DNA from: Thermoflexus hugenholtzii
GTDB taxonomy: Bacteria > Chloroflexota > Anaerolineae > Thermoflexales > Thermoflexaceae
DNA: 64,000 bases
Assembly: GCF_018771565.1 (NCBI RefSeq)
Contig: NZ_CP076326.1
Coordinates: 1,116,001 to 1,180,000 of the forward strand
Reading direction: 5' to 3'
Both the position numbers and the translations under genes were made by a program. Shown here one piece after another: positions 38,991-44,459 of this stretch. The notes under the pieces are model-generated. The model was not told the DNA's origin and ran no database searches. It saw only the letters and a list, made by a program, of their open reading frames with translations. Numbering within the stretch: the first letter of the stretch is position 1; each line of letters starts with the position of its first letter.

Positions 38991-39226
38991 TAAGGTTTAC
39001 GTAGTTTCCTGCGTATTCCGGTCGTGGCCCCGAGCGGAAACCCAAAGCCAAAGAACTGGCAACAGGAGTCGTCCATCGACCCCTGCCCCGGAGGCCGGAG
39101 CCTCCAAGGAGTTTCTCGCATAAAGCATGTCTTTTAGTCATCTGCTACTTATCGGCAGGCCACTTCCATAATAACGCACTTCCATAATAACGTCAGAGGA
39201 ACACCTTGTCAACTGCGTAACTCCTA
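38991..39226 (-). mobile_element. internally deleted IS200/IS605-type element
   Basis: The left end (39226-39210, TAGGAGTTACGCAGTTG on the minus strand) matches the left end of the intact element at 54697 over 17 bases. Near the right end, 26 bases (GGCCACGACCGGAATACGCA and the following GGAAAC) are identical to 55961-55986. The tail of a TnpB gene is recognisable between them, reading CTCCGGGGCAGGGGTCG against CTCGGGGCAGGGGTCG in the intact copy. The rest of tnpB is gone, leaving a non-autonomous derivative of about 236 bp. The left end begins at the stop codon of the YhfC-family gene. Confidence 0.82.
39161..39192. repeat. 16-bp tandem duplication
   Basis: CACTTCCATAATAACG occurs twice without a gap inside the IS605 relic. 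It is probably a slippage product with no function visible. Confidence 0.9.
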
Positions 39227-39988: not shown

Positions 39989-40007
39989 GATCCTCTCGCA
40001 TCCCGGT

Positions 40008-40036
40008 TTGTCAAATCTACGGTTTTACTTTAAAAA
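40008..40036 (+). promoter_or_regulatory. probable promoter of the NarL-type two-component operon
   Basis: TTGTCA (40008-40013) is followed after 17 bp by TAAAAA (40031-40036) inside an AT-rich patch, about 100 bp upstream of the regulator start. The -35 box is good and the -10 box is weak. Confidence 0.45.
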
Positions 40037-40137
40037 TATTTTGAACCCGATGAGGGCAAACTCCCCAGAAGCGGGCGATCCGCTTCGTCAACCCGGAGGG
40101 GGAGACGCCGCGGAGCCGCTGGAAAGGAGGCGCGGCG

Positions 40138-40812
40138 ATGTCGTATCGGGTCCTGATTGTGGACGATCATCCCCTGTTCCGCAAAGGCGTCCGGGACACC
40201 CTGGCCCTGGAACCGGGCTTTCAGGTGGTCGGGGAAGCGGCGGACGGCCAGGCCGCTCTGGAGATGATCATGCGTCTGGCCCCTCACCTGGTGCTGATGG
40301 ACGTGCATCTCCCGGTCCGGAACGGCCTGGACGTGATCCGGCAGGCCCGCGCCCACCGGTTCGAAGGCGCCATCCTGGTCCTCACCGCCTATGACAGCGA
40401 GGAGCAGATGCGATATGCCGTTCGCATCGGCGCGAACGGGTATTGCTCCAAAGACACCCCTCCCGAGCAACTCCTTCAGAACATCCGTCACGTGCTCTCC
40501 GGCCGCTACGTCCTGGGATCCCGGGTGCTGACCGCCCCCGAGGTTCGACAGATCATCGGCGAAGCGGAGGCGGAAGAGGATCTCAGCCTCTCCCCTCGGG
40601 AGCGGGAAATCCTGCAGTACGTCGCCCTGGGCTACAGCAACAAGGCCATCGCCGAGCGGCTGGGGATCAGCCAGCAGACGGTGAAGAACCACATGACGGC
40701 CATTTTGCGTAAACTGGATCTGAGCGATCGCACCCAGGCCGCCATCCTGGCCGTGCGCCGCGGATGGGTCCGTCTGCCTGAAGAGCCCATCTCTCCGGAG
40801 GAGAAATCGTGA
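40138..40812 (+). CDS. NarL/FixJ-family response regulator
   Basis: This 224-aa protein has a receiver domain (VLIVDDHPLFRKGVRDTL, phospho-acceptor Asp in LVLMDVHLPVRNG, Thr in LVLTAY, Lys in YCSKDTPPEQLL) and a C-terminal LuxR-type helix-turn-helix (LSPREREILQYVALGYSNKA, GISQQTVKNHMTAILRKL). All phosphorylation residues are present. GGAGG lies upstream. The sensor kinase gene overlaps its end by 4 bp, so the two are a cognate pair. Confidence 0.95.
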   Translation: MSYRVLIVDDHPLFRKGVRDTLALEPGFQVVGEAADGQAALEMIMRLAPHLVLMDVHLPVRNGLDVIRQARAHRFEGAILVLTAYDSEEQMRYAVRIGANGYCSKDTPPEQLLQNIRHVLSGRYVLGSRVLTAPEVRQIIGEAEAEEDLSLSPREREILQYVALGYSNKAIAERLGISQQTVKNHMTAILRKLDLSDRTQAAILAVRRGWVRLPEEPISPEEKS

Positions 40813-41846
40813 GCGAGCCGACATCCCCGCTCCAGGATCTGATGGCCTACTGCCGCGAGGAGCAGGAAGCCGCGCGACGGCAGCTCGCAGAGGTGCAGGC
40901 GCTCATCCGACAGACCTCCGCGGACGTGGAGCGGCTGGCCCAGCGCAGCCTCCAGCTGACGAATCAGATCAAGCAGATGGAAAGCCGCCCGGGGAGCACC
41001 CCGCCTGAGGAGATCATTGAAAGCTACCAGTCCGCCATGGACATTCAAAAGCGTCTGTGGCTGATGCGGGGCCAGCTGGAGAAGTTCCAGAGCCTGGAAG
41101 CCCACCTCCGTCGGTATGTGGAGGCTCTCGACCGCATCCTCTCAACCCTCGCCGCGCTGGAAGCGGAGAGCGCCTCCGCCCGCCCAAGCGTGGAGCCGAC
41201 CCTGATCGTGCGGCTCTTCGAGGCTCAGGAGCAGGAGCGGCAGCGCCTGGTCCGCCAGCTGCACGATGGACCTGCCCAGGCCCTGACCAACCTGGTGTTG
41301 CAGGCCGAGATCTGCGAGCGGCTCTTCCAGCGGGATCCGGAGCGCGCCCGGGCCGAGCTGGCCGCTTTGAAGAACGCCGTCGCCGAGACCTTCCAGCGGA
41401 TGCGGGAGTTCCTCTTCGATATCCGCCCCATGAGCCTCGACGATCTGGGGCTGGTCCCCACCGTGCGACGCTATGTGGAGACCCTGAAAGAGAAAGTGAA
41501 GTTCTCCCTCCAGCTCCAGATCAGCGGCGAGGAGCGTCGTCTGGCAGCCCATCAGGAGGCCGCGCTCTTCCGGATCGTCCAGGAGCTGCTCACCAACGTT
41601 CGCCTGCATGCCCAGGCCTCCCAGGCCACGGTGCGGCTGGCCTTCACCCCGCAGGGGGTGCGCCTGGAGGTGGAGGACAACGGGGTGGGGTTCGACGTGG
41701 AGGAGGCCATGGCCCAGGCGCCTCAGCGCAAGACCATCGGCCTGACTTCCATCCGCCAGTGGGTGGAGATGCTGGGCGGGCAGCTCTCCATCACCAGCGC
41801 CCCCGGCCGGGGGACGCGGGTGGCCGTGTTCCTCCCGAACCCGTGA
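40809..41846 (+). CDS. soluble NarX/DegS-type sensor histidine kinase
   Basis: This 345-aa protein starts with a GTG overlapping the regulator gene. Residues 1-135 are a long coiled coil (EAARRQLAEVQALIRQTSAD, LQLTNQIKQME). Next is a HisKA_3 dimerisation domain with the phospho-His in RLVRQLHDGPAQALTNLVLQ near residue 151, and a HATPase domain (RIVQELLTNVRLHAQASQAT, LEVEDNGVGFDVEE, GLTSIRQWVEMLGGQ). No membrane helix is present, so it is a cytoplasmic sensor like DegS. The signal is unknown. A hairpin-rich repeat array begins just after the stop. Confidence 0.92.
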   Translation: MSEPTSPLQDLMAYCREEQEAARRQLAEVQALIRQTSADVERLAQRSLQLTNQIKQMESRPGSTPPEEIIESYQSAMDIQKRLWLMRGQLEKFQSLEAHLRRYVEALDRILSTLAALEAESASARPSVEPTLIVRLFEAQEQERQRLVRQLHDGPAQALTNLVLQAEICERLFQRDPERARAELAALKNAVAETFQRMREFLFDIRPMSLDDLGLVPTVRRYVETLKEKVKFSLQLQISGEERRLAAHQEAALFRIVQELLTNVRLHAQASQATVRLAFTPQGVRLEVEDNGVGFDVEEAMAQAPQRKTIGLTSIRQWVEMLGGQLSITSAPGRGTRVAVFLPNP

Positions 41847-41859
41847 GAGGCGCACCTTA

Positions 41860-42370
41860 CGAGTCGAACGAATTCGACCTGCTGAGGCCTTCGGCCGGCG
41901 GTCGGCCTGCGCCGAATGAATTCGGCCTCGAGAGGCCTTCGGCCAACGGTCGGCCTGCGCCGACCGAAAAGGCATCCTTCGCGTCGGCGGAGGCCGACGC
42001 CCGGCGCGCAGCGCCCGGAGAGGCCGATTTCAATCGGCGTGAAAGCCTCCGGCCAACGGTCGGCCTGCGCCGACCGAGGAGCGTCGCTTGCGTCGGCGGA
42101 GGCCGACGCCCGGCGCGCAGCGCCCGGAGAGGCCGATTTCAATCGGCGTGAAAGCCTTCAGCCAGCGGTCGGCCTGCGCCGACCGAAAAGGCATCCTTTG
42201 CGTCGGCGAAGGCCGACGCCCAGCGCGCCAGCGCCCGGAGAGGCCGATTTCAATCGGCGTGAAAGCCTTCGGCCAACGGTCGGCCTGCGCCGACCGAGGA
42301 GCGTCGCTTGCGTCGGCGGAGGCCGACGCCCGGCGCGCAGCGCCCGGAGAGGCCGATTTCAATCGGCGCA
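41860..42370. repeat. tandem array of about 110-bp units built from inverted repeats
   Basis: Successive copies of AGGCCGATTTCAATCGGC start at 42021, 42130, 42241 and 42350, giving units of 109, 111 and 109 bp, preceded by a divergent partial unit from about 41860. Each unit holds several short perfect inverted repeats: GCCGATT-TC-AATCGGC, GGTCGGC-CTGC-GCCGACC, CGTCGGC-GGAG-GCCGACG and GGCGC-GCA-GCGCC. Two versions of a 13-base segment alternate between units (GGAGCGTCGCTTG and AAAGGCATCCTTT). The first partial unit uses GAATTC-centred relatives (GCCGAA-TGAA-TTCGGC). The array fills the gap between convergent genes. The frames it leaves open are by-products of its composition. Confidence 0.9.
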
Positions 42371-42394
42371 AGGGGCGCAAAGAGGCCCGAGGCG

Positions 42395-43375
42395 CTACAG
42401 GCGAAAGCGCCCTCCGATCCGGCGGGCGAGCCGGAGGCTTGCGGCGCGGAACATCCGGGAGCGGAAGAGGGCTCCGCTGAGCCCGGCCCCCAGCAGCGCC
42501 CCCGCGACCACATCCAGGGGATAATGCACCCCGCCATAAACCCGGGCCAGGCTGATCCCGGCCGCCAGCCCCATCGCCACCCACCCGACCCGACGGTTCC
42601 CCGTCTTCAAGGAGACCGCGATGGCCCAGGCCACCGTCGCGGCGTTGCTGGGGAACGAGGAATCCGAGGGATGATAGAAAAGCAGATGCACCTCATGGTC
42701 CGTGAAGGGGCGAGGACGGAAATACACCGCGTTCATCGCCTCCAAGAGGGCGCCGCTGAGGGGAACGGCGAGGACGGCCCGCAGGACGGCCGCCTGCTGC
42801 ACCGGATCGCCGCTCCACCACATCCACCAGGCCAGCATGGCCAGAGCCGTGGGCACCGCATAGTCGTTGATCAGCAAGCGGGCCAGCCCGTCCAGCCAGG
42901 GAACCCGGCCGGCATAGGCGTTCAACGCGAAGAAGAGCGGCACATCCCAGCGCCAGAGGATCAGCAACAGCGCGAGGAGCCCACCCCACAGAAGCGGCCG
43001 GAGCCCGGCGTTCCTCACCCCCTCAGCCCCCGGCTCCGGCCTCTCGCCCCGTGAAGGATGCGGATCGGAGATCGCTACACCGGAGGCGGGCCGGGATCCG
43101 GTCAGGGCCTGCAGCGCCCGCAAGACCCCCCACGCCCCCAGCATGGCCAGCCCGCTCATCGCCGCCAGCTCCGTGCCTGCCGGCCCCGGCGTCCAGATCT
43201 CCGGGACGCCCGCGAAGAAGCCGATGCCGCTGGCCAGCAGGAGGAGAACCCCCACGCCCTGGAGTTCCCACGAGGCGCGGCCTCGGCCCCAGCGGAGGAG
43301 GAGGACCCCCAGGGCGACCGCCCACGACGCCCCCAGGTAGCCCGCCACCAGATACCAGGCCATATACGACCGCAC
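42395..43375 (-). CDS. PAP2-family membrane phosphatase
   Basis: This 326-aa protein has several N-terminal helices of unknown role (residues 1-130) and a type 2 phosphatidic acid phosphatase domain with the three motifs in order: NAVYFRPRPFTDHEVH, PSDSSFPSNAATVAWA and LARVYGGVHYPLDVVAGALL, which hold the catalytic His residues. Such enzymes dephosphorylate undecaprenyl pyrophosphate or other lipid phosphates on the outer face of the membrane. It ends beside the repeat array and is divergent from the LLM gene. Confidence 0.88.
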   Translation of the reverse strand: MRSYMAWYLVAGYLGASWAVALGVLLLRWGRGRASWELQGVGVLLLLASGIGFFAGVPEIWTPGPAGTELAAMSGLAMLGAWGVLRALQALTGSRPASGVAISDPHPSRGERPEPGAEGVRNAGLRPLLWGGLLALLLILWRWDVPLFFALNAYAGRVPWLDGLARLLINDYAVPTALAMLAWWMWWSGDPVQQAAVLRAVLAVPLSGALLEAMNAVYFRPRPFTDHEVHLLFYHPSDSSFPSNAATVAWAIAVSLKTGNRRVGWVAMGLAAGISLARVYGGVHYPLDVVAGALLGAGLSGALFRSRMFRAASLRLARRIGGRFRL

Positions 43376-43448
43376 GATCCTCTCCCTCAGGGAACCTGTC
43401 GAGCCGGATTATAATGGCAGAAGAATGATCCCACCGAGAGGCGATCCC

Positions 43449-44459
43449 ATGCATCTGGACGCCGCGCTCCACTACGACCGGCTGAGCGAGGTTCCGGATC
43501 TGGCCCGGGCGGCGGAGGCCATGGGCTTCGACGGGATCTGGACCCACGAGACCCGCCACGATCCGTTCCTGCCGCTGGCCTTAGCCGCGGAACACACCCG
43601 GCGCATCCACCTGGGGACCGGCGTGGCCATCGCCTTCGCCCGCAGCCCGACGGTCATCGCTTACACCGCCTGGGATCTGGCGGCCATGGCGCCCGGCCGG
43701 ATCTTCCTCGGGCTGGGCACCCAGGTGAAAGCGCACATCGAGCGCCGCTTCGGGATGACCTGGGATCCCCCTGTCCCCAAGCTTCGGGAGACCGTGGAGG
43801 CGATCCGGGCGGTGTGGGCGTGCTGGCAGAACGGGGAACGGTTGAACTACCGGGGCCGCTTCTTCAAGCTCACCCTGATGTCCCCTTTCTTCAACCCCGG
43901 CCCCATCCCGGATCCGCGCATCCCCATCCTCCTGGCGGGGGTGAACCCGCCGCTGGCCCGCCTGGCCGGCGAGGTGGGCGACGGCTTCTTCGTCCATCCC
44001 TTCCATACCCCTCGCTACCTTCGGGAGGTCCTGATCCCAGCGATTGAGGCCGGCGCGCGCAAAGCCGGCCGGCGGCCCGAGGAGATCCTCCGGGTGGGCA
44101 GCGTCTTCGTCATCACCGGCCGGGATGAGGCGGAGATGCAGCAAGCCCGGGAGCTCGTCCGCGCCCAGGTCGCCTTCTACGGCTCCACGCCCTCCTATCG
44201 GCGGGTCTGGGCCCTCCACGGCTGGGAAGCCATCGGGGAGCAGCTCTCCGCCCTGGCCGCCCGGGGGCGCTGGGAGGAGATGCCGGCGCAGGTTCCCGAT
44301 GAGGTCCTGGAGGCTTTCGCCCTGACCGCCCCGCCCGAAGGGGTCTGGGAACGCCTGAAAGCCACTTACGAAGGCCTGCTGGATCGGGTGATCCTGTATC
44401 AACCCTTCCGGCTGCAGGATCGGGAGCTATGGGAGAGGATCCTGAGCGGGCGACGGTAA
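43449..44459 (+). CDS. LLM-class flavin-dependent oxidoreductase
   Basis: This 336-aa luciferase-like TIM-barrel protein resembles the F420/FMN-dependent group: GFDGIWTHETRHDPFLPLAL, IHLGTGVAIAFARSPTVIAY, GRIFLGLGTQVKAHIERRFG and PILLAGVNPPLARLAGEVGD. The cofactor (F420 or FMN) cannot be decided. The start at 43449 has GAGAGG eight bases upstream; an in-frame ATG 8 codons earlier is possible. TATAAT at 43410-43415 is a good -10 candidate. The end overlaps the AAA-ATPase gene by 31 bp. Confidence 0.88.
   Translation: MHLDAALHYDRLSEVPDLARAAEAMGFDGIWTHETRHDPFLPLALAAEHTRRIHLGTGVAIAFARSPTVIAYTAWDLAAMAPGRIFLGLGTQVKAHIERRFGMTWDPPVPKLRETVEAIRAVWACWQNGERLNYRGRFFKLTLMSPFFNPGPIPDPRIPILLAGVNPPLARLAGEVGDGFFVHPFHTPRYLREVLIPAIEAGARKAGRRPEEILRVGSVFVITGRDEAEMQQARELVRAQVAFYGSTPSYRRVWALHGWEAIGEQLSALAARGRWEEMPAQVPDEVLEAFALTAPPEGVWERLKATYEGLLDRVILYQPFRLQDRELWERILSGRR

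Follow-up and report, generated by a model that had tools for sequence, protein, structure and literature searches.

The window, i.e., the whole stretch of 64,000 nucleotides of Thermoflexus hugenholtzii DNA that we analysed, contains an array of hairpins at 41863-42367, which is made up of four units of 109-111 bp and a leading module. The array is bounded by the stop of a sensor histidine kinase gene (41846) and the stop of a gene encoding a PAP2-type membrane protein (42395), and these two genes are convergent. The features are listed by their positions in the window.

40809-41846, plus strand: sensor histidine kinase, the left neighbour, outside the element
41863-41878, plus strand: E' hairpin GTCGAACGAATTCGAC, stem of 6 with a 4-nt centre, in the first, diverged half-unit
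41886-41896, plus strand: P0 hairpin GGCCTTCGGCC of the first, diverged half-unit
41911-41926, plus strand: E hairpin GCCGAATGAATTCGGC, stem of 7, loop GA
41934-41944, plus strand: P0 hairpin GGCCTTCGGCC of unit 1
41947-41966, minus strand: A hairpin of unit 1, CGGTCGGC-CTGC-GCCGACCG, with the GNAG loop on the minus strand
41967-41980, plus strand: spacer variant 1 between the inverted pair A/C, previously described as a cassette
41981-42000, plus strand: C hairpin of unit 1, GCGTCGGC-GGAG-GCCGACGC, with the GNAG loop on the plus strand
42000-42018, plus strand: D hairpin, imperfect, CCCGGCGC-GCA-GCGCCCGG
42023-42038, minus strand: T hairpin of unit 1, GCCGATT-TC-AATCGGC, of the inverted E type
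42057-42147, plus strand: unit 2 (A 42057-42076, C 42090-42109, T 42132-42147)
42077-42089: spacer variant 2, in unit 2
42166-42258, plus strand: unit 3 (A 42166-42185, C 42200-42219, T 42243-42258)
42277-42367, plus strand: unit 4 (A 42277-42296, C 42310-42329, T 42352-42367)
42395-43375, minus strand: PAP2-type membrane protein, the right neighbour, outside the element

The original prediction described four near-identical units, and this was confirmed by Tandem Repeats Finder, which reported 4.0 copies of period 109 with a 90% match at 41935-42368 and a 96% match for the same segment at period 220; the start-to-start spacings of the units are 109, 109, and 111 bp. A period of 48 was detected at 41865-41968. 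The short inverted repeats described there are all perfect hairpins with stems of 7-8. The leading partial unit was also found; it is an E module, part of a full unit of 160 bp that is common at other places in the genome. Likewise, the two 13-base cassettes exist, but they are the 13-14-nt spacers between inverted hairpins, and dozens of further variants of this A/C spacer occur in other arrays. Allowing up to 3 mismatches, we counted 10 copies of GGTCGGCCTGCGCCGACC in the window (9 inside the array), against 0.45 expected from shuffles, and 9 copies of GCCGATTTCAATCGGC, against 0.86 expected. Apart from the array, the window carries a perfect 16-bp tandem duplication, CACTTCCATAATAACG, at 39161-39192.

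The repeat family in the Thermoflexus genomes

Comparison from array to array indicated that the full unit is ~160 bp long with the order E - P0 - A - spacer - C - D - T, and that the 109-bp unit is the full unit minus E. The full unit consists of two inverted half-units of ~57 nt, each with three hairpins, namely GCCGAWT-GA-AWTCGGC, then a GGCC/GCGC hairpin, and then GTCGGC-CTNC-GCCGAC. The half-units are separated by the 13-14-nt spacer (16-19 nt between the 16-nt hairpin cores), and E-P0-A aligned to the reverse complement of C-D-T with a score of 65, compared with 44.5 for the top of 1000 shuffles. As the half-units face each other across the spacer, the full unit folds as a single long hairpin when taken as a single strand from E to T (z -6.1). 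For the structured RNA that was among the earlier suggestions, an Rfam search of window positions 40000-44000 at E<=1 gave no match; a known RNA family was therefore rejected.

The original prediction also proposed a genome search for the 110-bp unit, and this revealed a genome-wide repeat family. In the host genome (G000; 3.32 Mb, one contig), the unit gave 209 BLAST matches, and GGCCGANTNNANTCGGC was found at 216 sites, while its reversed control was found at 0. We mapped 35 arrays of 134-1493 bp each, which sum to at least 23.5 kb; the work on this genome drew on the stretches near the arrays and on sampled regions. According to heuristic gene calls, all 35 are intergenic, and 18 lie between co-directional, 9 between convergent, and 8 between divergent genes. 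The convergent setting that had been described thus applies to the array in the window but not as a rule, and a reading of the arrays as terminators was rejected because they show no preference for convergent genes. A strand bias relative to replication was not evident, with 11 plus and 6 minus as well as 11 plus and 7 minus arrays in the two halves defined by GC skew, which lie at roughly 2.8-3.3/0-1.1 Mb and 1.1-2.7 Mb.

Neighbouring hairpins with the GNAG loop had opposite orientations in 207 of 243 pairs (<> 117, >< 90, >> 23, << 13), and such alternation is a hallmark of BIMEs and REPINs. The stems of E, A, C, and T in this genome are 95-99% paired, compared with 85-93% for shuffled arms, while the short P0 stem showed no pairing excess over shuffled arms. 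We kept only these paired percentages and excluded two-sided stem changes, because the latter are inflated by E/T and A/C cross-alignment.

A search of relatives, which had likewise been proposed, showed that repeat arrays are also present in same-genus genomes. In the near relative G004 (~95% DNA identity; kinase 98% identical), the gap between the kinase and PAP2 genes is 152 bp long and holds a remnant, compared with 548 bp in the host genome. The gap is 177 bp with one unit in G006 (kinase 90%), and 54-150 bp with no unit in G001, G005, G007, and G008 (about 76-82%). The gap of 648 bp in G002 (L101) is occupied by an unrelated tandem repeat, TTCGTAGTCGGGCACGAAGCG...TGCCCTACTACGAAC, which looks like a GTAG-tagged REP family.

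For 33 of the 35 arrays of the host genome, G004 carries a counterpart at the orthologous position, usually with fewer units, and one further array matches G004 on one flank. Because 33 sites are common to both genomes, the array sites are old relative to the split of the two, and the family has either ceased to colonise new sites or does so slowly. Recent hopping was rejected on the same ground, and no transposition event was observed. Array length, on the other hand, changes at fixed sites. The G004 assembly is fragmented, so part of the length difference may be due to collapse; the recombination hot spot suggested earlier is partly consistent with the length difference between relatives at one site, which may itself stem from such collapse.

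Tandem repeats are prone to misassembly, and the 152 bp of G004 against 548 bp could raise the suspicion that the tandem array itself is an assembly artefact, a concern named in the original prediction. However, the host genome was assembled as one 3.3-Mb contig whose many arrays differ in their units and spacers, an independent genome (G006) has one unit at the kinase/PAP2 site, and it is the fragmented relatives, if anything, that are collapsed. We therefore consider an artefact extremely improbable.

A Y1 transposase gene and its flanking hairpins

The host genome contains four Y1-transposase genes. One of them, a 144-aa HUH-Y1 gene at 1827597-1828028, lies between two arrays of the window-type repeat, and tnpB was not found in the locus around it. 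Its orthologues in G003 (82%) and G008 (78%) are located inside arrays with their own species-specific stems and at chromosomal places other than in G000, and the gene is missing from the G000 site in the other genomes. G001, G004, and G006 have many repeats, and the gene was not detected there; contig breaks at the repeats or gene loss could account for this. The closest homologues in named records belong to Thermoflexus sp. SKYG36 and Candidatus Thermoflexus japonica.

The protein passed the IS200 model NF033573 (58 bits, cut-off 55) and failed the REP_Tyr model (25 bits, cut-off 80). It carries the motifs HLH, WQ, and YIQRQKEHH, and lacks the Y---NP motif. The catalytic HxH, Y, and Q are invariant; Y115, Q119, K120, H122, H123, and W95 are invariant in 15 sequences, and Q96 is present in at least 90%. 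The HuH motif is written DHLH in the Thermoflexus copies and DHVH or DHIH in many relatives. On the basis of these motifs, we assigned the transposase to TnpAY1 subclass 1.2, of which the genome has one copy, with the next best Y1 gene being 25% identical. Its predicted structure resembles IS608/ISDra2 TnpA and TnpAREP, with a model rmsd of 2.9 A to TnpAREP and 5-14 A to IS608-type TnpA; the latter value may reflect a displaced tyrosine helix, and a cis or trans active site is not readable from the model, which is a monomer.

The other Y1 genes are a class-2 gene at 304772-305101 with the motif YIEENPVRR and two further genes at 2846483-2846749 and 2865282-2865512, and no GNAG hairpins were found beside any of these three. 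A classical RAYT partner was accordingly rejected. The proposed check for a RAYT-type gene thus did yield a Y1 gene flanked by the repeats, but one from the IS200 side (subclass 1.2) rather than a RAYT.

The transposase family was found in 129 of 396 genomes of the host's class, usually as one to four divergent copies, and also in Cyanobacteria, Gemmatimonadota, Abditibacteria, and a few others. We surveyed 99 non-redundant relatives from Chloroflexota, Cyanobacteria, and other groups. A stem-C-GNAG-G-stem hairpin lay within 600 bp of the gene at 84 of the 99 loci, at a median distance of ~55 bp, and on both sides at 71. The density of GNAG hairpins was 2.5/kb near the gene and 0.096/kb beyond 1.1 kb, a 26-fold difference, and the background in 400 kb of the host genome outside arrays was 0.017/kb. 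Among the four-base loops near 45 loci, 77 of 93 were CTNC/GNAG; for the remainder of the window, beyond the array, the count was 1 of 10. A search pattern that fixed the loop and left the closing pair and foot free returned 269 hairpins, of which 267 had a C-G closing pair; the 3' foot T-Y-G was enriched, and there were 31 distinct stem ends. The stems thus vary by lineage, while the GNAG loop and its C-G closing pair are constant.

Most of the 15 loci that lack the hairpin encode homologues with less than 45% identity, and several of these are flanked left and right by repeated hairpin sets of another kind. Such other sets, with loops of 3 or 6 nt, bracket the more divergent transposase relatives at L083, L085, L087, L092, and L163; at L083 and L092, one set of three hairpins recurs in the same order on the two sides of the gene.

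In several other genomes, GNAG hairpins are also scattered over further places. When the 396 genomes were scored for at least 5 GTCGGC-GNAG-GCCGAC hairpins, 26 had both the hairpins and the gene, 15 the hairpins only, 103 the gene only, and 252 neither (odds ratio 4.2, Fisher p 2e-5, with kinship ignored). Many of the gene-only genomes carry other stems. On the other side, 15 of the 41 genomes with at least 5 hairpins have no gene, which speaks against the link to the enzyme, as do the repeat-rich G001, G004, and G006, in which the gene was not detected, and the other hairpin types beside the divergent homologues.

In other bacteria, REPs have host roles such as transcription end, mRNA stability, and nucleoid-protein sites. 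The hairpins could be such host elements, with the transposase merely inserting in or beside them without recognition. The stable folds, the well-paired E, A, C, and T stems, and the sites kept in G004 agree with this idea. However, the arrays favour neither gene ends nor convergent pairs, the gene is bracketed by one and the same loop class across many phyla despite different stems, and seven other Y1 loci are free of GNAG hairpins. We consider this explanation unlikely.

Alternatively, the gene and its hairpins could be an IS200-like insertion sequence of the ordinary kind, and the arrays scattered through the genome would then be its decayed MITE/PATE-type derivatives rather than a stable REPIN system. 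The Y---Q motif, the score above the cut-off of the NCBIfam IS200 model, the hairpins that tightly bracket the gene on both sides, and the differing places of the gene in G000, G003, and G008, with the G000 site empty in others, are all consistent with it. Yet one subclass-1.2 gene stands against more than 200 repeats in the host genome, the surrounding locus is without tnpB, the copies across the class are few and divergent, and the units are inverted pairs in long tandem arrays rather than end-to-end deletion derivatives. In our opinion, this possibility is doubtful, though worth keeping in mind.

Relation to known systems and a possible mechanism

REP/BIME sequences and their RAYTs (Nunvar 2010, PMC2817692; Quentin 2018, PMC6006769) share with the present family high-copy extragenic palindromes in alternating orientation and a single Y1 gene flanked by repeats, and in both the stems differ by lineage as the proteins do. 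The 209 matches and 216 sites exceed the >100 extragenic palindromic copies per genome of REP families, and 207 alternating neighbours contrast with 36 in the same orientation. Unlike REPs, the Thermoflexus family has a GNAG loop with a C-G closing pair, three hairpins instead of one per half-unit, and no GT[AG]G foot in any of 279 hairpins of the host genome. Because its hairpins lack this GTAG/GTGG foot and the transposase beside them lacks the Y---NP motif, the family is not a REP/RAYT member, and the REP/BIME-like array suggested in the original prediction holds for copy number, extragenic position, palindromes, alternation, and the flanked Y1 gene but not as a documented REP/RAYT family. 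We conclude that the system probably works like REP/REPIN without belonging to REP/RAYT.

Bertels and Rainey (2011, PMC3116915) described REPINs as two inverted REPs with a short spacer that form one hairpin, as our units do, and reported that tandem REPIN clusters occur, some of them near RAYT genes. In Thermoflexus, by contrast, the half-units are composite with three hairpins, tandem arrays of up to ~1.5 kb are the usual form, and the transposase is of another class. Replication or excision within genomes is a further trait of REPINs; the observation in Thermoflexus that bears on it is the differing array length at orthologous sites.

Quentin (2018, PMC6006769) placed subclass 1.2 near the IS200 transposases but recorded for it no IS features and no REPs; its table gives YIKNQKEHH and 'REP: no', the HuH is DH[IV]H, and terminal hairpins are generally lacking. 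The target of the subclass was thus previously unknown. Our transposase shares with it Y---Q--HH, WQ, a length of ~145 aa, a low copy number, and the frequent occurrence in Cyanobacteria, whereas the conserved hairpin class at 84 of the 99 surveyed loci differs from 'REP: no'. With IS200/IS605 elements (IS608, ISDra2), it shares the HUH-Y1 fold, the catalytic residues including Y---Q, and subterminal hairpins as recognition elements. In those elements, several near-identical whole copies would be expected, but the Thermoflexus gene is present once, has no tnpB, and is far outnumbered by its repeats.

Taken together, the array is probably a REPIN/BIME-like non-autonomous tandem cluster, which the subclass-1.2 TnpA probably recognises and probably spread. 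The architecture, copy number, alternation, gene flanking, loop conservation, and length differences at orthologous sites were read from the sequences, and from these we infer binding, cleavage, mobilisation, and any host benefit. The single-copy enzyme encoded inside such arrays elsewhere in the genome would act on single-stranded DNA, recognising the stem-C-GNAG-G-stem hairpin and cutting and rejoining the DNA there; the recognition is modelled on that by IS608/ISDra2 TnpA and TnpAREP, which the protein resembles in sequence and predicted structure. This activity may once have seeded unit copies in intergenic sites, and local slippage or recombination may then have lengthened or shortened the tandem units. 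We also lean slightly towards a broader view, in which subclass 1.2 would be a separate REP-processing system, widespread in Chloroflexota, Cyanobacteria, and other groups, with the C-GNAG-G loop hairpin as its signature in place of a GTAG foot, of IS200-side origin independent of RAYTs, that drives composite REPIN arrays like that of the window.

A search of the open-access literature found no description of these repeats, nor of repeats with subclass 1.2. The hairpin beside 84 of 99 genes is a likely concrete substrate to test. If the proposal is true, Y1 transposases were also domesticated for repeat processing in a lineage other than the RAYTs, and there would be a candidate cause for many intergenic hairpins of Chloroflexota and Cyanobacteria that have so far lacked an explanation.

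A literature search for the cyanobacterial hairpin sequence yielded unrelated papers only. At the cyanobacterial loci L187-L189, L194, and L197, conservation next to the gene extends past the hairpin to the flank CTACACAGACAA-AACCCGCCTGCGCGGGTT.
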